A program made the position numbers and the translations under genes. Positions 19,490-62,366 of a stretch of 64,000 bases of DNA are shown one piece after another. The stretch is from the IMG/VR virus record IMGVR_UViG_3300026518_000007, positions 35,326 through 99,325 of that record; one strand, given 5' to 3'. Origin of the DNA: a virus. The notes below the pieces were generated by a model. It saw only the letters and a list, made by a program, of their open reading frames with translations, did no database searches and was not told the DNA's origin. The first letter of the stretch is position 1. The number at the start of each line of letters is the position of its first letter.

Positions 19490-21301
19490 ATGGCAATTCA
19501 AAGAGGAATTAAAACAGGCGTAGAAACAGAAGTAAATGTAGAACAAGCAACTGCAGCACAAAACAATTTAGAAGATATGTTCGTAGATGACCAACGTACA
19601 GATAACGGTGAGCAGTTTCAAGATTTGATTAGTCTTGATAGTATCCTTATCTCTGATAAAGCGGATGGTGAAGTTTTAGAAGATGCGGGTAAAGCATTTT
19701 TGAAAGGTATCGAGTCTAAAAAGATTGATGTTAAAATAGCAACTATTAATAAAGATGCATATGACTTAGGTTATTCATTCGTACTTATGTATTATAAAGG
19801 AAGTAATGGTAAGGTTTACTACTTCATGTCACTACTTGAAGCTACAGGTCGTGCGCCAGTTACAGTTAAACAAATCATTGCAGAAATGAACATTAAAAAC
19901 AGTATTGCTATCCTTGTAACATCTGATGCATTTAATGATTATCTATATGAGCAAATTGAAAAGACTCTTAGAAAAGAGTTCAATGATGCACCACTTGTAT
20001 CTTTAGAGGGCGTAGTTATCCCTACTGATGCTAACATTGAGACAACATGCGAAATCATTGCTAAATATGGCCATGACCTTATCGCTCTTAAAGAGCTAGT
20101 TGAAACTGGTAAGGCTAGAGATATCACTGCTGCTGATATTCGTAAAGTAACTTCAAACTCAAATCTTACACTTGATGTAATCATGAACACTGGTCTTACT
20201 ATCAATAAGTTAGGTAGAACGGTTCGTACAGATTTCAATGTTGAAACTAACGTAGTCCGTAATGGTAATGTTCGTGATTTTCACGGAACTAACTCTAGAA
20301 AAATGCTTGCTACAACTGCTGGTTATTTAGAGTATATCATTTCTGAAGATGTTATTCCATATACACAACAAATCAAACGTACAGCAAAACCAATGATTAT
20401 ACTTAATGAGTTCTTAGGTAAAGCTCCAACTATGGGTTATACTTTACTATCTCTTATCAATGCTGCAACATTCACTAACAGACAACAACTAAGTGCTCTT
20501 ATCATTGAGAAAGATGCTGGCCCACTTAACTACTTGTTTAACTATAAAGGTGATGGTGCTGGTTTTGGAGATAAGCTATCTTTTAAAGACCCTAAAGCTA
20601 AACCTGAAATCATCAATGATATCATTCGTACGCATATCAGCTCTTCTCCTATCTTCGCAGTTGAAGTTGAATTATATGGTGCAAGTTATTCATATATGAC
20701 TCCGTTCGTAGGTTTAAGTATTCCAAGTGCTACACAACGTGCTACTAATGATATCTTATCTGCTGCAGAACGTTTAGTCGGAAGTAAGTTTGAAACTAAC
20801 GCAGTTGCAGCTAATGAAGGTTTCTTAGTACCTATTGGTAACTATGTAGATGCTGATGGTAATACAAGAGATATTCGTGAAATCGATACAACATTTATCG
20901 CTAAGTATACTAATGAACCAGCGTTGATTTTTGAATGGATTTTCTCTAACTTACCATCTCACATTTGTGAAAGTCATACTGGTAAACAACCTTATATTCT
21001 TAAATTAGAAGTGATTGATAAAATTGCTACTATTCTTAACTTACAGGTTACTATTACTGGTAAAGCGGTACGTGTTCCACTACATGGTAGATTTGTAGAA
21101 GAGTTAGTACAAAAAGCTATGGCTGCTGGTTATGCTCCAAGTACTGAAGGTAATCCAATCGGTTATAACGATTTCAATAACTTACAATTTGTAGCGCAAG
21201 CATACAACGGTGCTTCTGTATCTAATACAGGTTTCGCAGCACAGCAAATGGGTAGCGCAGGTTTCATGGGTAATTTCAATAACATGAAATATCGCGGTTA
21301 A
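19490..21301 (+). CDS. major virion protein, candidate major capsid protein
   Basis: 603 residues. Codon use (CTT, CGT, ATC, GCA) is clearly different from most genes of the window and marks very high expression, as do two or three promoter-like motifs, a private terminator and a strong AAAAGGA site. No signature proves the fold. The chain is a soluble alpha/beta protein with a Gly/Gln/Ala/Met-rich C-terminal tail (last ~40 residues). Gly-Ile-Glu-Ser at 73-76 follows an acidic N-terminal region and would fit removal of a ~75-residue propeptide by a head maturation protease, as in phiKZ-type heads. This favours capsid, but sheath or another abundant structural protein remains possible. Confidence 0.6.
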   Translation: MAIQRGIKTGVETEVNVEQATAAQNNLEDMFVDDQRTDNGEQFQDLISLDSILISDKADGEVLEDAGKAFLKGIESKKIDVKIATINKDAYDLGYSFVLMYYKGSNGKVYYFMSLLEATGRAPVTVKQIIAEMNIKNSIAILVTSDAFNDYLYEQIEKTLRKEFNDAPLVSLEGVVIPTDANIETTCEIIAKYGHDLIALKELVETGKARDITAADIRKVTSNSNLTLDVIMNTGLTINKLGRTVRTDFNVETNVVRNGNVRDFHGTNSRKMLATTAGYLEYIISEDVIPYTQQIKRTAKPMIILNEFLGKAPTMGYTLLSLINAATFTNRQQLSALIIEKDAGPLNYLFNYKGDGAGFGDKLSFKDPKAKPEIINDIIRTHISSSPIFAVEVELYGASYSYMTPFVGLSIPSATQRATNDILSAAERLVGSKFETNAVAANEGFLVPIGNYVDADGNTRDIREIDTTFIAKYTNEPALIFEWIFSNLPSHICESHTGKQPYILKLEVIDKIATILNLQVTITGKAVRVPLHGRFVEELVQKAMAAGYAPSTEGNPIGYNDFNNLQFVAQAYNGASVSNTGFAAQQMGSAGFMGNFNNMKYRG

Positions 21302-34568: not shown

Positions 34569-35507
34569 ATGAAAAATAAACACCAACTACAGACTCTTAT
34601 TATGGATAAGAGTGAATTCTTAGAAATGGTAGATGCCATTGATAAAAATATTAATGCTACAGTTTTACCTAGTATTAATGAGCTTATTAAAACAACATCT
34701 GATTCAGACGTTTTAGTAAGCACGATAGCGTTTAGTTCTTTAAAAGAGAAAAAAGATTCAAGTTTCTTTAAACGTCTTTATAATGTCATTAGTAAATATA
34801 GAGATACACTACCGTCTTTAAAAAGTAAGATAGAGGAGTATATGCCTGACACTATTACTACTACTAGTAATGATGTTAATGTTAGATTAGTGCTATCGTT
34901 AGTTAGCGAAGGCGTTTTCTTTTCAGAGACTACTCCGGTTATGCTAAGTTATCTTATAAGTAAGTACTATACTAAATCATCGACTGAGTTAGACCCATCT
35001 ACAGTTAGACAAATGGGACAACGTTTAAGTATAACAGTTAAGATTATTCCTGAATTAGAGAAAGCTGATTTAAAACCTATTATAGAAGCTATAGGTAATG
35101 TTCCGACTATTAAATCTCTTAAATTCGAATCTACTTCCACTATACCTTCTGAAGTAGTTTTAGGTTTCTTTAAAGATACTTTTAGTATTAAAAACTTTTA
35201 TACTCTAACTACTATAAAACGTTTGTTAGGTTATTTTAATATTAAAGATTATAAAAATAAACAAGATATAGCTAAAGGTTTTATAGGTAATCCTATCATG
35301 CACCTTAGATTACTATTCGTAGACTTAACAGCTCTTAGATTAGAAGCTATGAAAGATAAGCGTAAGTTACTAGAACTTCGTCTTTTAGAACTACGCTCTT
35401 TTAATAATGATGGTAGTACTAATCCTAAACTTAGTAAACAGATAGCATTCTACGAAGATAAATTAAATAAGTTAGATATGAAGATAGATAAATTATCAAG
35501 AATTTAA
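34569..35507 (+). CDS. hypothetical helical protein, 312 residues
   Basis: Not recognised. Mostly helical, with a Lys-rich C-terminal coiled-coil region (KDKRKLLELRLLELRS, then FYEDKLNKLDMKIDKL, ~265-310). No catalytic motif or membrane segment is seen. AAGGA precedes the ATG. It lies 22 bases after the 379-residue gene and 13 bases before the 591-residue protein, within the internal-head-like run. Confidence 0.65.
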   Translation: MKNKHQLQTLIMDKSEFLEMVDAIDKNINATVLPSINELIKTTSDSDVLVSTIAFSSLKEKKDSSFFKRLYNVISKYRDTLPSLKSKIEEYMPDTITTTSNDVNVRLVLSLVSEGVFFSETTPVMLSYLISKYYTKSSTELDPSTVRQMGQRLSITVKIIPELEKADLKPIIEAIGNVPTIKSLKFESTSTIPSEVVLGFFKDTFSIKNFYTLTTIKRLLGYFNIKDYKNKQDIAKGFIGNPIMHLRLLFVDLTALRLEAMKDKRKLLELRLLELRSFNNDGSTNPKLSKQIAFYEDKLNKLDMKIDKLSRI

Positions 35508-54797: not shown

Positions 54798-54872
54798 ATG
54801 TATGTTATGTATGTCCAGTAGTACTACAGGCAACGGCCATTGCCTAAACATAAAACAAATAAAGGAACAGAC

Positions 54873-57095
54873 ATGGTAAGTGAATATTTTAATAAAAATA
54901 GAGATGCTTTCATAGAAACTGATAAAGACCTTATGTTAAATCATAAATTCTTTTCAGCAGCAGCAATCAATCCCTGTATCGAACATAACTCAAGCCCCCG
55001 TGGTTTAATGATGTCTTCACATATAAGTCAAGCTCTAGTTTTAGACGACTCTAGGGAAAATATCTTACAAACAGGACTAGAGGTAGAATTTGGAAAATAT
55101 ACTATCTCTAAGAAATTAAAAACCGCATCTGAAATTATATCAGTTATAAAAAGATACCAGACAATGAATAGTAAACAAGATGTATCTGAATATATCGTCA
55201 TATATAGAGAGTTAGAAACTGGTACAGTTAATTCTATGTCTATACCATATTCTAATAGATATCATCCATACTTTGGATTCAAATTTAATGTAAACGAAAA
55301 TATAAATACTTTTGTAAGAGGTACTATATTAGATAAAGATACATATCTAGCTAAAACCCCTAGCATTAAAGAGAACGGAGGATATGCGTTAGGTAGAGAT
55401 GTTAATATTTGTAATATGACTATGCCTAATAATGACGAAGATGGTTTTATTGTATCTAAATCATTTTGCGAGAATTTTAAGTTTAAACTTTTTGAAACTA
55501 AAACTATTGATGTAGGAGAAGATAGTTTTCTATTAAACTTATATGGAGATGATGATAATTATAAACCTTTCCCAGATATAGGTGAGTATATTAATAGTAC
55601 TGGAGCAGTATTCGCAAGTAGAGCATATAGTGATAAATTTGGACCTATACTTTATGGTAAGGGTTCAGTTAAGAAATTTGACCCTAATTTCGATAGAGCA
55701 GTTTATACCAGGGGACCAGGCGGTAAAGTTATAGATGTTAAAGTTTATCGTAATAATAGAAAGAAAAAGATGCTTCCTACTAATACAGATGTACAGTGTG
55801 AGAAATATGCTACTGCATTAGTATCTTTTCATAAGCAAATTATAAACGTTTATGAATCTATTAATAAAGAGTATTATAAAACATTCGGTAGGGATTTAGA
55901 AGTAGGCCCTAATTTTAATACATTATTAGTAGAATCTTATGGTATTGTTGAATCAGATAAACCTAAGACTAAACTAAAGAAGATGTATAGAAAAGAGACT
56001 TTAGATATCTATAGAATAGAAATAACTATAGAGTACGAAGTTACACCTACTATAGGGTTTAAACCAACAGACCTTAGTGGTGGGAAAGGAACAATCGTAG
56101 ATATATGGGACGATAAAGATATGCCTATAGATGCTGATGGTAATCGGGCCGACCTTATAGTAGACCCTAAATCAACTATAGGTAGACTTAATGTAGGTAG
56201 ACTTTATGAACGTTATATAAAAGCAGGTAGTAGAAAAGCTAAAAAATTAGCTATAGAAGAATTACATAAATTTAACTTCGTAGAAATAAATAATGCTACA
56301 GATGATGCAGTTATAGATGTGTTTAGAATAGTAACAGAGTTCACTGATATAGTAGATAATGAGATGTCTAAAACCTATGCTTCATTATTAACGACACGGG
56401 ACATTGATAAGATGCGTATTATACTACATGAGGTTATTAATGAAGAGTTATATCTTTATTTAACGGTAGATAATGATAAACGTAAGTATGAGATAATCGA
56501 AGATATTAAGTTATCTAAATTCGCACCACCTTATGGGTTAGTTACATTTAATTATAATGGAGAAGTTAAACATACTAAAAATAATGTTTTAATAGCTCCT
56601 ATGTATATAATGTTACTTTCTAAAATAGCCGATACTACATTAGCTACATCTAGCGCTAAACTAAATCATTTCGGTATACCAGTAGTAGTTACTAAAGCTG
56701 ATAGAGATAGTATGCCACATAGGAATAGCCCAACTAGAACTATAGGTGAGACTGAAGGTCGTATCATGGCCGCTTATGGCGGTCGTAAATTCATAGCAGA
56801 ACTTAAAGATAGAAATACTTCTCTTAATACTCATATAGCAGTTTATAATAACATTTTAACTAATAGAACTCCTACTAATGTAGAGCAAAATGTAAATAGA
56901 CGTGTTATTAAATATGGAGGAGATAGAGCATTAGAGATTTTAGAATCTTTATGGAATAGTATAGGAATGGAATTGAAATATGTAAAAGATAAAAATAGAT
57001 TTATAGAGCATACGGATGAGGAATATGTAGTTACTATAGATGATATAGAGAATCTATCAGAAGTTGAAGATATAGGGAGTAGAGACGATGAATAA
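54873..57095 (+). CDS. RNA polymerase beta subunit, C-terminal part (split)
   Basis: 740 residues starting at the beta fork region. AAAINPCIEHNSSPRGLMMS (29-48) matches the bacterial SLIPFLEHDDANRALMGS. LGRDVNICNMTMPNNDEDGF (~173-192) matches the GYNFEDAI region. IGFKPTDLSGGKG (394-406) keeps the two active-site Lys (397 and 405, eight apart) of GDKMAGRHGNKG. DMP...DGNRADLIVDP then GRLNVGRLYE matches DMP...LNPLGVPSRMNVGQ. The N-terminal half of beta is missing and must be another gene outside the window. ATG 54873 follows AAAGGA; an in-frame TTG 33 bases upstream lies over a hairpin. The next gene starts 8 bases before its stop. Confidence 0.9.
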   Translation: MVSEYFNKNRDAFIETDKDLMLNHKFFSAAAINPCIEHNSSPRGLMMSSHISQALVLDDSRENILQTGLEVEFGKYTISKKLKTASEIISVIKRYQTMNSKQDVSEYIVIYRELETGTVNSMSIPYSNRYHPYFGFKFNVNENINTFVRGTILDKDTYLAKTPSIKENGGYALGRDVNICNMTMPNNDEDGFIVSKSFCENFKFKLFETKTIDVGEDSFLLNLYGDDDNYKPFPDIGEYINSTGAVFASRAYSDKFGPILYGKGSVKKFDPNFDRAVYTRGPGGKVIDVKVYRNNRKKKMLPTNTDVQCEKYATALVSFHKQIINVYESINKEYYKTFGRDLEVGPNFNTLLVESYGIVESDKPKTKLKKMYRKETLDIYRIEITIEYEVTPTIGFKPTDLSGGKGTIVDIWDDKDMPIDADGNRADLIVDPKSTIGRLNVGRLYERYIKAGSRKAKKLAIEELHKFNFVEINNATDDAVIDVFRIVTEFTDIVDNEMSKTYASLLTTRDIDKMRIILHEVINEELYLYLTVDNDKRKYEIIEDIKLSKFAPPYGLVTFNYNGEVKHTKNNVLIAPMYIMLLSKIADTTLATSSAKLNHFGIPVVVTKADRDSMPHRNSPTRTIGETEGRIMAAYGGRKFIAELKDRNTSLNTHIAVYNNILTNRTPTNVEQNVNRRVIKYGGDRALEILESLWNSIGMELKYVKDKNRFIEHTDEEYVVTIDDIENLSEVEDIGSRDDE

Positions 57096-59115
57096 AAAAG
57101 TTATACCTATAGATAAGATAATGTCTATGGATAGGCATATGATACTTAAATTACATACTAATTTAAATATCATGTTCGATGATGGCGTTCTGATTAAGGA
57201 CTGTAAATATAAGAGTGTTATCATGTTTAGATATTTCTTAGATTTTATTAAGGAGTTTAATACTCCTGTAACATCTGAGATGTGGTTAGATAACTTCTTA
57301 GTTAACGGTTGTTTCACTCAGCGTACTTACACAGGCATGTATGGTATAGTGTTTAGAGACGTCATAAGTAAACAAGTTAAAGAAGAAGAGTCTAATTCAT
57401 TAATGAAACCTTTATTCAAACGTATGTATGAAACTATAGATATAGTTAACAGAGAGTTAGTTAATCACGCTATAGAATATGCGGTTTGTGTAGAAGTTGT
57501 AGATATCTTAGATATACAGTTCGATGAAGACTTACTTAAGTCTATAGTAGCTGCGTTTAAAAATCCATCACAAAAAACTATAGAGGATACATATAGCGTA
57601 TTACATTCTACATTTATGAAAGAAAAATATGCAGGTAATCCTATGTTACTATTCTTTAAATCAGGTATAGTTTCTATAGACCAGATAAGACAGTTATTAG
57701 CAGCTAGAGGCTATTTAACGGAATTAGATAGTAAGATATTCGCTATGCCTATGACTAACTCTTTTATGCTCGGCTATAGAGGTATTTATGATGCGGCTAT
57801 AGAGTCTAGAGCTGGTACTAAAGCACTATATCTTTCTGGTAAGGCGATTCAAGATAGCGAGTATATGTCTAGAGAGCTTCAATTAGCTACTATGGTTCTA
57901 GAGCGTATTAAAATAGGTGATTGTGGTCATCCTACATATACCGATTTCTTTATAAGACCTAAAGAGTTTGATGAAGCCGGTAACATGACGTATAAGGGCG
58001 ATATACAAAATCTTCTTGGTAAAGAGTATTTAGACCCTGAGACTAATGAGCCTAAGACTATAACGATGGAATCTAAAGATATCGTTGGTAAGAATATTAA
58101 AATACGTTCTGGTATATATTGTGGTTGGAAAGATAAGAAAGCCATATGTACTAAATGTTTAGGCGAAACTGCGTTATCTATATTCGAAGACCAAAACTTA
58201 GGACATATAGGTACAGTTAAAGGTACTTCTAAAGTAACGCAATCTATTTTAAGTACTAAGCACTTATTGAAATCAGCAACATCAGCGCCTATACGTTTAT
58301 TAGCGAGCGTTAAGAAATATCTTATGCTTAAGAATAATGAAAACTTATTCTTTAAAACAGGTGTCTTAAATAAGAAACTTAAAACGGTGCATCTTAAAAT
58401 AAGACAAAGTGAAGCATGGGGACTATCGTCTATATCTGAAGTTAAAGATATGTTCTCTATAAATATTAATAAAGTAACTAGAATATCAGAAGCTATATTA
58501 GTTATAGAGGGTAAAAACGATAGACAAGAGATACCATTACTACTTAAGAGTGGACATAGATTTGCATACTTGTCTTTAGATGCCCTATCTTATGCACTTA
58601 AAAATGGATATGATGCTACTGATGAAGAGTATTATACTATAGATATAAATAACTTTAATAATAAGAAACCTATATTCGTTTATGAGAAAGTAGAATTTGA
58701 TTTTGCTGCACTTAGTAAAGAGTTTAAAACTTTACTTAAGACTCGTAAATATAAAACAGTTAATGGAATAATTAGGTCAGAATATCAACCACATGTTTTA
58801 GCTCAGAAATTATTCGAGCTTATTAATAACAAGTTAGATATAAACTTAACCATCGTAGAGATAATGACATATCCATTTACGACACAAGATATTAGTAAAG
58901 GTAATTTTGATTTAGGACGCAATAGTAAATATAAAGATGTAGTAGGTTTTAAAGAAGCTATTAACTATAGGTCTATTGGGGCTAGTTTTGACTGGGATAA
59001 TTTACAGAATAAAGTATTAGACCCTATGCTATATGAAGCTAATAATAAACCATCTACTCCTATGGATGTATTCTTTAAACCAGAAGAAGTTTTAAAATAT
59101 GAAGGTGACCATTAG
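57088..59115 (+). CDS. RNA polymerase beta' subunit, C-terminal part (split)
   Basis: 675 residues. MPMTNSFMLGYRGIYDAAIE (220-239) matches the bacterial region PI..NFREGL..LEY, and SRAGTKALYLSGKAIQDSEY (240-259) matches HGARKGLADTALKTADSGY, the bridge-helix end. Cys279, Cys345, Cys354 and Cys357 give the second beta' zinc site in the right order. SKVTQSILSTKH (381-392) matches the TQLTMRTFH end of the trigger-loop region. It lacks the N-terminal third, which is the gene at 11519. Its ATG lies inside the end of the beta gene (ATGAATAA overlap of 8 bases), so the two subunits are probably translated in step. A short hairpin follows. Confidence 0.9.
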   Translation: MNKKVIPIDKIMSMDRHMILKLHTNLNIMFDDGVLIKDCKYKSVIMFRYFLDFIKEFNTPVTSEMWLDNFLVNGCFTQRTYTGMYGIVFRDVISKQVKEEESNSLMKPLFKRMYETIDIVNRELVNHAIEYAVCVEVVDILDIQFDEDLLKSIVAAFKNPSQKTIEDTYSVLHSTFMKEKYAGNPMLLFFKSGIVSIDQIRQLLAARGYLTELDSKIFAMPMTNSFMLGYRGIYDAAIESRAGTKALYLSGKAIQDSEYMSRELQLATMVLERIKIGDCGHPTYTDFFIRPKEFDEAGNMTYKGDIQNLLGKEYLDPETNEPKTITMESKDIVGKNIKIRSGIYCGWKDKKAICTKCLGETALSIFEDQNLGHIGTVKGTSKVTQSILSTKHLLKSATSAPIRLLASVKKYLMLKNNENLFFKTGVLNKKLKTVHLKIRQSEAWGLSSISEVKDMFSININKVTRISEAILVIEGKNDRQEIPLLLKSGHRFAYLSLDALSYALKNGYDATDEEYYTIDINNFNNKKPIFVYEKVEFDFAALSKEFKTLLKTRKYKTVNGIIRSEYQPHVLAQKLFELINNKLDINLTIVEIMTYPFTTQDISKGNFDLGRNSKYKDVVGFKEAINYRSIGASFDWDNLQNKVLDPMLYEANNKPSTPMDVFFKPEEVLKYEGDH

Positions 59116-60104: not shown

Positions 60105-62366
60105 ATGATGATTAAAATAAATACATATTCACAGTATTTCACTGTGACTGCCATTAATTTCTCTAAACTTATTTTTAAACTACATGATTTTAATAATAAT
60201 TTAAAAACTAATAAGTTAGTTATGGAGAAACATGGTAAATGGGGTACTGGTAAATTAGTACCTAAAGTAGATAAACATTTTTATATAATAGAAACTGAGA
60301 ATAGTGAGAATCCTTATAGTAGAAATATTATAAGATATCCTATAAACATATTAGATAAATTATTAAAGTATTTAACTTTTAATGGAGTTAATCAGGATGA
60401 TATTGAAATAATTGAACATAAACCTTTTTCTGGTAGGAAGATAAAAATAGCTGCTAATAGTATATTAACACCTAGACCGTATCAAGCTGAGTATATTAAT
60501 AAGATTAAGTTATGGGATAAGCATAATACGTTAGTAGATTTACAAGCAGGTATGGGTAAGTTTTTAAATGTTGATACACCTATAAAAACTAAATATGGCT
60601 GGCGTAAGATAGGTAATGTAAAGGTAGGTGATTTAGTAATAGGTAATGATGGTTTAGAGACTAAAGTAATAGGAGTATACCCACAAGGTATTAAATCTTT
60701 ATATACTGTAACATTTGAAGATGGTAGAAACGTAGAAGCTGGATTAGAACATTTATGGACAGTATATATAAACGACATCAAACATACTATAGATACTGCT
60801 GAAATACTTAAAGGGTTAAAAGTAGGGATAGAGTATCATATTGATTTAATGACGCCTATAGTTAATGAAAATAGAGTAAGTGAAGAAGAGCTTAAGCTAT
60901 ATATTAACAGAATTAAAAAAGGCATTATTAATACTATACCTAAAAAAATATTAGACACTACTTACCATAATAAATTATATTTCTTTAATGAGCTTATTAA
61001 AACTAATAAGAAAATTATTAATGATAATAATAGTTTAATAGTAAGTGGTTCAGAATTAGCTAACGATATTCAATTATTGATACGTAGTTTAGGGGGTATT
61101 TGTAATAAGAAGTATTTCTCTCTTATGGATGAGTTTATTTTAGAATATGATTTTCCTATAACTAAGAAACTTAAAATAGTTAATGTACAGTATAGTAAAG
61201 ATGCAGAAGCAGTCTGTATAGCCGTAGATAATAAAGATAAGTTATATGTAGTTAAAGATTATATAGTAACGCATAATACATTTATATCTGTAAAATCTAT
61301 AGTACACTATAAAGAAGCATTTTCTATTATAGTACTGCCTAGATATATAGACAAATGGATTAATGATATTATATTCCTAACTAACTTAGATAGGGAAGAT
61401 ATCTGTGTTATACAAGGTATCACTAATCTTAATAAAATAGTTAATGATAAACATGAGGTTAAGAAGTATAAAGTATTTATTATTTCATTAACTACTATAA
61501 GTCTTTTTATAAAAGCATATCTTAATAATAAGTTAGAGTATGATGCCAAAGTAGTACCAGAGAATCTTTTTAATACGTTAGGAACGTCTATAGTACTTAA
61601 TGATGAATCTCATCAAGAGTTTCATAATGTATTTAAAATAATGTTATTTAGTAATGTTAGATTACTTATAGGATTAACTGCTACACTATTAACTAATGAT
61701 AAAGATATGGAACGTATGCATAATATATTATTTCCAGAATCTAATAGAATATCTAATGTAATACCTTATAATAAGTATATTAATGTATACTCTGTTCGAT
61801 ATAGATTATTTAATAAGAAGTTTATTAGATTTAAAAGTGGTTTTGGTTACAATCAGCCTACTTTTGAGGCATCTATCATGCGTAATAAGAGGACATTATT
61901 AAACTATTATGAGCTAGTTAAAACGCTAATGACTGGTATGTATATGAAGCGTAGAAAAGATGGCGATAAAATGCTTATATTCATGGGTACTGTAGAAATG
62001 TGTAAAGTATTCGTAGATTTAATTAAAAAAGATTTTAGTAATTTTAATGTAGGTAAGTATACAGAGGAAGATAGTTATGACGTATTTGAGGAATCAGATA
62101 TAATAGTTTCCACGATTCCATCTGCCGGTACTGCGATAGATATAGAAAATTTAATAGCTGTTATACAAACAGTTAATGTAGACTCGCCGTCTGCTAATAC
62201 ACAAACATCTGGTAGACTTAGAGAGATAAAAGGTAGAGAGGTTTTATTCGCATACATATGGTGTGCTGATATTTTGCCACATAAGAAATATAACTATAAC
62301 AGATTAAATCTATTTAATAAAATAGCTAAATCTGTTAAAACTATAAATTATAATAAATTAATTTAA
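60105..62366 (+). CDS. SF2 DNA helicase (UvsW-like) interrupted by an intein
   Basis: 753 residues encoded, 514 after removal of the intein (153-391). The joined protein is a superfamily 2 helicase: Q-like TPRPYQAEY (122-130), Walker A QAGMGK|T completed only by splicing, motif II NDESH, motif III GLTATL, a motif IV-like LIFMGT and motif VI QTSGRLRE. The order resembles T4 UvsW, which handles branched DNA and R-loops. Because the intein splits Lys152 from Thr392, the unspliced protein cannot bind ATP normally. AAAAAGGA lies before the ATG, behind a terminator and class 2 motif. It is followed by a 40-residue zinc protein in the same unit. Confidence 0.88.
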   Translation: MMIKINTYSQYFTVTAINFSKLIFKLHDFNNNLKTNKLVMEKHGKWGTGKLVPKVDKHFYIIETENSENPYSRNIIRYPINILDKLLKYLTFNGVNQDDIEIIEHKPFSGRKIKIAANSILTPRPYQAEYINKIKLWDKHNTLVDLQAGMGKFLNVDTPIKTKYGWRKIGNVKVGDLVIGNDGLETKVIGVYPQGIKSLYTVTFEDGRNVEAGLEHLWTVYINDIKHTIDTAEILKGLKVGIEYHIDLMTPIVNENRVSEEELKLYINRIKKGIINTIPKKILDTTYHNKLYFFNELIKTNKKIINDNNSLIVSGSELANDIQLLIRSLGGICNKKYFSLMDEFILEYDFPITKKLKIVNVQYSKDAEAVCIAVDNKDKLYVVKDYIVTHNTFISVKSIVHYKEAFSIIVLPRYIDKWINDIIFLTNLDREDICVIQGITNLNKIVNDKHEVKKYKVFIISLTTISLFIKAYLNNKLEYDAKVVPENLFNTLGTSIVLNDESHQEFHNVFKIMLFSNVRLLIGLTATLLTNDKDMERMHNILFPESNRISNVIPYNKYINVYSVRYRLFNKKFIRFKSGFGYNQPTFEASIMRNKRTLLNYYELVKTLMTGMYMKRRKDGDKMLIFMGTVEMCKVFVDLIKKDFSNFNVGKYTEEDSYDVFEESDIIVSTIPSAGTAIDIENLIAVIQTVNVDSPSANTQTSGRLREIKGREVLFAYIWCADILPHKKYNYNRLNLFNKIAKSVKTINYNKLI
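60561..61277 (+). other. class 3 intein, 239 residues, in Walker A of the helicase
   Basis: Inserted exactly between Gly-Lys and Thr of Walker A. Block A starts FLNVDTPIKT, so residue 1 is Phe, not Cys, Ser or Ala. VGDLVIGNDG and the following strands are the usual splicing fold. Block B reads EHLW with Trp at helicase residue 218 just after His216; block F has Cys371 in AVCIAVDN; block G ends Thr389-His390-Asn391, followed by Thr392. Trp, Cys and Thr at these places are the WCT hallmark of class 3 inteins, which start splicing from the block F Cys and do not need a nucleophile at residue 1. The middle (~250-340) has ANDIQLLIRSLGG, a trace of a LAGLIDADG-type homing domain, apparently truncated. 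Confidence 0.85.

Follow-up and report, generated by a model that had tools for sequence, protein, structure and literature searches.

The window, a stretch of 64,000 nucleotides covering positions 35,326 to 99,325 of the IMG/VR virus record IMGVR_UViG_3300026518_000007, contains an open reading frame of 753 aa that encodes a helicase precursor with an intein inside its Walker A motif. Two RNA polymerase subunit genes (phrog_3295, phrog_3015) lie upstream of the helicase at positions 54840-59115, and a nuclear-shell protein (chimallin-like) was matched at positions 19490-21301 (phrog_4795, E=1.6e-27). With this nuclear-shell gene and a multi-subunit RNA polymerase the source phage is, by its gene content, a nucleus-forming jumbo phage (Chimalliviridae), which agrees with the giant phage host proposed in the first-pass annotation. 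The phage is AT-rich (28% GC) and has only remote similarity to named phages. The features of the locus are the following, all on the + strand.

60105..62366, +: SF2 (UvsW-like) helicase precursor with intein, predicted orthologue of phiKZ gp75; 753 aa ORF with ResIII, phrog_16 and phiKZ gp75 matches
60105..60560, +: N-extein, with the C-terminal end AGMGK (first half of Walker A)
60561..61277, +: class 3 intein of 239 aa, predicted from sequence, alignment, survey and model
60561..60563, +: Phe1 codon TTT, a non-nucleophilic residue 1
60750..60752, +: His B:10, precursor residue H216, invariant in alignments A1 and A4
60756..60758, +: Trp B:12 of the WCT triplet, W218, invariant in alignment A1 and in 158/158 surveyed inteins
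60927..61106, +: LAGLIDADG homing endonuclease remnant, matching just the second half of the domain (endonuclease profile, i-E=2e-9)
61215..61217, +: Cys F:4, C371, predicted branch-point nucleophile (alignment and survey)
61269..61277, +: Thr G:5, His G:6 and Asn G:7 (T389-H390-N391), C-terminal splice junction
61278..62366, +: C-extein from Thr+1, with the remaining Walker A, the DESH Walker B near 61602, the LTATL motif III and motif VI

The spliced 514-aa protein matched ResIII with E=1.8e-10 and the DNA helicase family phrog_16 with E=7.5e-23, and the match to Helicase_C was weak. Over most of its length it was aligned with the intein-free helicases of Serratia phage Moabite, Erwinia phage Ea35-70 and phiKZ (gp75, found by tblastn), and the SF2 marks GMGKT, DESH, LTATL and GRLREI are all present. 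The similarity to UvsW comes from the annotation of the Moabite gene. In Moabite, Ea35-70 and phiKZ the helicase gene immediately follows the RNA polymerase beta-prime gene. Judged by motifs and orthology, the ORF in the window is a phiKZ gp75-type SF2 helicase.

In the translation the intein spans precursor residues 153-391, flanked by LVDLQAGMGK and TFIS, and thus enters between Gly-Lys and Thr of Walker A. The reading frame is open across the whole ORF at 60105-62366, and in silico removal of the intein gave a 514-aa protein in which Walker A (GMGKT) is continuous. W218, C371, T389, H390, N391 and T392 were each confirmed individually in the precursor. The first-pass annotation had placed the intein at 60561-61277, with Phe1, W218, C371, T389, His-Asn and Thr+1 as its marks, a split Walker A and a spliced length of 514 aa, and all of this was exact. 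The GC content of the intein (26.5%) is close to that of the extein (26.1%), so base composition gives no sign of a recent arrival. The only repeats found around the intein were weak, AT-rich and chance-like, and they leave no trace of DNA-level insertion marks.

The intein has the full class 3 set of residues (His B:10, Trp B:12, Cys F:4, Thr G:5, His-Asn and Thr+1), while residue 1 is Phe, where class 1 inteins have Ser, Thr or Cys. Class 2 inteins are published as having a KlbA host, Ala1, Ser G:6 and Cys+1 (PMC4031507), whereas here the host is a helicase and the corresponding residues are Phe1, His G:6 and Thr+1. Sequence searches of the PDB with phmmer matched gp41-1 (6riz, E=1.4e-12), M. 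smegmatis DnaB-1 (6bs8, E=4.9e-9) and M. chimaera DnaB1 (6rix, E=5e-7), and a profile of 17 related inteins, including that of the window, scored the site at E=4.5e-70; together these show that the resemblance to inteins is not due to chance. Elsewhere in the 99-kb record the same profile found no class 3 intein. The general Intein_splicing domain of Pfam had no match in the record either; this model misses even the helicase intein. In the alignment of the 17 inteins, some of which come from terminases and SNF2-like proteins, His B:10, Trp B:12, Cys F:4, Thr G:5, His and Asn were invariant. Block A and the P-loop aligned gap-free with the 16 other inteins, all of which start right after Gly-Lys, and this supports the register of residue 1. 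An AlphaFold2 model of the intein, made with an alignment of window and contig sequences, had a mean pLDDT of 93.3 and matched 6bs8, 6rix, 6riy and the WCT-engineered gp41-1 6riz (TM normalised by target 0.71-0.85), and also PI-SceI. Foldseek gave E values of 6e-8 to 1e-6 for 6bs8, 6rix and 6riy, with a HINT fold as in the solved class 3 inteins. The first-pass reading as class 3 is therefore supported by the WCT triplet, His B:10, the PDB matches and the predicted fold, and its remark that Phe1 is incapable of the normal first acyl shift is correct, Phe not being a nucleophile.

Next we surveyed IMG/VR contigs, GTDB contigs and named phages, where 158 distinct P-loop inteins that start after Gly-Lys and end in His-Asn were found among the matches listed. 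Because the loci were collected by a C-terminal VTHN-type pattern, with confirmation by class 3 profiles, the C-terminal marks are in part conserved by design; residue 1 was not a selection criterion. HxW in block B, Cys in block F and Thr G:5 were present in all 158, and the +1 residue was Thr in 147 and Ser in 11. At residue 1 we counted Ala 113 times, Glu 15, Met 11, Leu 4, Ser 3, Cys 3, Gly 2, Phe 2, Asp 2, Val 2 and Gln 1. Several of the relatives are shorter (143-214 aa) yet retain WCT. The three Ser1 inteins are L083, L093 and L216, and three inteins inserted after STGAGK (L139, L141 and L069) have Cys1 in addition to the full WCT, and so are equipped with nucleophiles for either route, class 1 or class 3. 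The other Phe1 intein (L132) is on the viral contig IMGVR_UViG_3300009702_000676. The two stand apart on a tree of splice domains, built from WCT inteins only and with many deep forks unresolved, which indicates two separate changes to Phe. Within this survey Phe1 is uncommon but not special, and position 1 is evidently unconstrained across the family. The first-pass annotation had expected a Phe1 member to be a useful new example; its rarity stands, but its novelty is lessened by the eleven different residues tolerated and by the independent case in L132. Its statement that class 3 is the rarest of the three classes was wrong, since class 2 is limited to KlbA orthologues (PMC4031507), a 2020 count in nr reached 1701 for class 3 (PMC7891396) and one scan of viral contigs gave at least 547 relatives.

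An exact DNA pattern for Gly-Lys-Phe-Leu-Asn-Val-Asp-Thr-Pro had no match in the viral contigs, so no near copy is known outside the record. With one gene copy on a 99-kb fragment and no near copy, a sequencing error at the Phe codon is possible; the independent Phe1 in L132 makes that of the window plausible. A literature search, with the main class 3 catalogue (Tori and Perler 2011) outside its scope, found no paper describing a Phe1 class 3 intein.

The first-pass annotation had overlooked a decayed endonuclease, inteins at the same site in phiKZ-like phages and natural empty sites. A LAGLIDADG profile made from full-length relatives matched intein residues 123-182 (60 aa, i-E=2e-9), corresponding to the second half of the domain only. 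The first motif is deleted, and the second LxGLxDTDG motif reads FFNELIKTNKK, with loss of the catalytic Asp; the window intein thus lacks the two LAGLIDADG motifs with catalytic Asp. From this match the central ~130 residues of the intein are identified as a worn-down LAGLIDADG homing endonuclease that is almost certainly dead, so the intein probably no longer homes and is presumably immobile. Endonuclease motifs were retained by 82.5% of class 3 inteins in a 2020 survey (PMC7891396). A Pfam match of the intein middle to Glucodextran_C was weak and under the cut-off, and was rejected as contradicted by the endonuclease remnant.

The GK|T site is filled by an intein in eight other aligned jumbo-phage helicases, namely those of Pseudomonas EL (gp40), Xanthomonas LucasX, Serratia BUCT660, Erwinia Rebecca, Vibrio VP4B, Proteus 10, Aeromonas AhC3_1 and Klebsiella KpLz. 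They share with the window the gene, the Walker A site and the invariant WCT, but their inteins begin with Ala, Glu, Leu or Met, and several have a full LAGLIDADG endonuclease (344-348 aa). The helicase genes of Moabite (empty) and BUCT660 (filled; L258/L003) are 99.4-99.8% identical on both flanks of an exact insertion of 1044 bp (348 codons), and those of Ea35-70 (empty) and Rebecca (filled; L259/L017) are 98.7-99.5% identical around an insertion of 1035 bp (345 codons). Such near-identical filled and empty genes are the pattern of a mobile intein. At +1 the empty Ea35-70 gene has Ser and the filled Rebecca gene has Thr, a difference that would fit co-conversion during homing. A further relative, L099 (IMGVR_UViG_3300026521_000161), has the same helicase (47% identity in the best segment) and the same GK|T site; its intein shares 64% identity with that of the window across the first 69 residues and is its sister on the splice-domain tree (support 99/87). 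Unlike the Phe1 intein of the window, with 239 aa and only a remnant, that of L099 has Met1 and 531 aa. It holds tandem LAGLIDADG domains, the first decayed (residues 88-222) and the second intact (299-492), joined by the usual linker; the arrangement looks like the result of re-invasion by a second endonuclease, or of a duplication. In public annotations (records H8, H14, H23 and similar) several intein-bearing phage helicases appear to be named 'terminase large subunit', 'DarB-like antirestriction' or 'Replicative DNA helicase (DnaB)', likely an annotation error caused by the intein matching other proteins that share one.

Taken together, the phiKZ gp75-type helicase of the window very probably has, at its conserved Walker A site, a class 3 intein that splices in cis by the published class 3 route. 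That route begins with an attack of Cys F:4 on the N-terminal splice bond; the acyl group is then passed to the +1 residue, Asn cyclises and the ester undergoes rearrangement (PMC4031507, PMC5222942). In crystal structures Cys, His and Thr form the catalytic arrangement, with the WCT Trp next to them (PMC7664689). Every residue of this arrangement is present in the window intein. We infer that the precursor splices, and in the following order. After translation C371 (Cys F:4), activated by H216 (His B:10) and held by Trp B:12 and Thr G:5, would attack the Lys-Phe1 peptide bond directly and form a block F thioester, after which the N-extein would be transferred to the side chain of Thr+1 (T392). 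Asn391 would then cyclise with the aid of His390, and an O-to-N shift would restore Gly-Lys-Thr and give the 514-aa helicase; Phe1 would have no chemical role. Since the intein physically breaks up Walker A, it is reasonable to suppose that the helicase has no ATPase activity before splicing. At F:13 (61239-61241, intein residue 227), where many inteins have His, the window intein and its nearest relatives have Lys, which could slow Asn cyclisation; Lys or Arg was found at this position in 49 of the 158 surveyed inteins.

Three other readings were weighed. The intein could be dead or dying, with the signature kept and splicing stopped by Phe1, Lys F:13 or the shrunken middle, and here the clear decay of the endonuclease part and the one class 3 pseudogene on record (PMC3196547) would fit. 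That pseudogene, Arthrobacter Arth_1007, is however without Cys F:4 and His B:10, whereas the catalytic residues are all intact in the window intein, the frame is open, both exteins are complete with their helicase motifs, the shorter relatives keep WCT and the splicing fold was predicted at high confidence; we consider this reading very unlikely. Still further from what we expect, and with hardly any probability, is a class 2-like route in which Thr+1 attacks the N-terminal splice bond directly and Cys F:4 is incidental. Class 2 inteins likewise have no nucleophile at residue 1, but they are KlbA orthologues with Cys+1 and Ser G:6 (PMC4031507), as opposed to Thr+1 and His G:6 here, and Cys F:4 and Trp B:12 are invariant family-wide.

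Compatible with the class 3 mechanism, but unlikely, is conditional splicing, in which the bulky Phe1 and Lys F:13 slow the reaction and the intein serves as a post-translational switch of the helicase in infection. The insertion lies exactly in Walker A, the intein seems immobile but has been retained, and oxidants or zinc are able to inhibit class 3 DnaB inteins (PMC6195587, PMC7360933). Against this, the P-loop, between Lys and Thr, is a usual, 'classic' intein site (PMC5050341), and immobile inteins may persist merely because precise loss is rare. We give a slimmer chance to the fuller proposal that Phe1, Lys F:13 and the shrunken endonuclease together mark an immobile intein kept for slow or conditional helicase activation during infection, a class 3 switch.

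As a class 3 intein, the window insert adds a natural Phe1 case to a kind already known, with hundreds of similar inserts, and is a fairly ordinary example of it. Phe1, together with the survey, in which WCT was intact in every member whatever stood at position 1, supports a chemically idle residue 1 in class 3, which is useful to protein engineers who want a free choice there. The Moabite/BUCT660 and Ea35-70/Rebecca genes are ready natural pairs for testing intein homing in nucleus-forming phages.

In comparison with individual inteins, L132 is similarly class 3, at a P-loop site and with Phe1, but has an intact second endonuclease motif, and its host is not a phiKZ gp75-type helicase, the intein region alone being matched. 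The best PDB sequence match of the window intein, across blocks A-B, is gp41-1 (6qaz; WCT-engineered 6riz), which differs in being class 1, with Cys1 and Asp F:4; its WCT-engineered form gave no productive splicing (PMC7664689). The M. smegmatis DnaB-1 and M. chimaera DnaB1 inteins (6bs8, 6rix, 6riy) share the class 3 WCT, the helicase P-loop site and the HINT fold. Unlike the window intein they are mini-inteins of 139-146 aa in a bacterial DnaB host, with Ser+1 and without Phe1, and for M. smegmatis DnaB-1 splicing has been demonstrated biochemically (PMC5222942).
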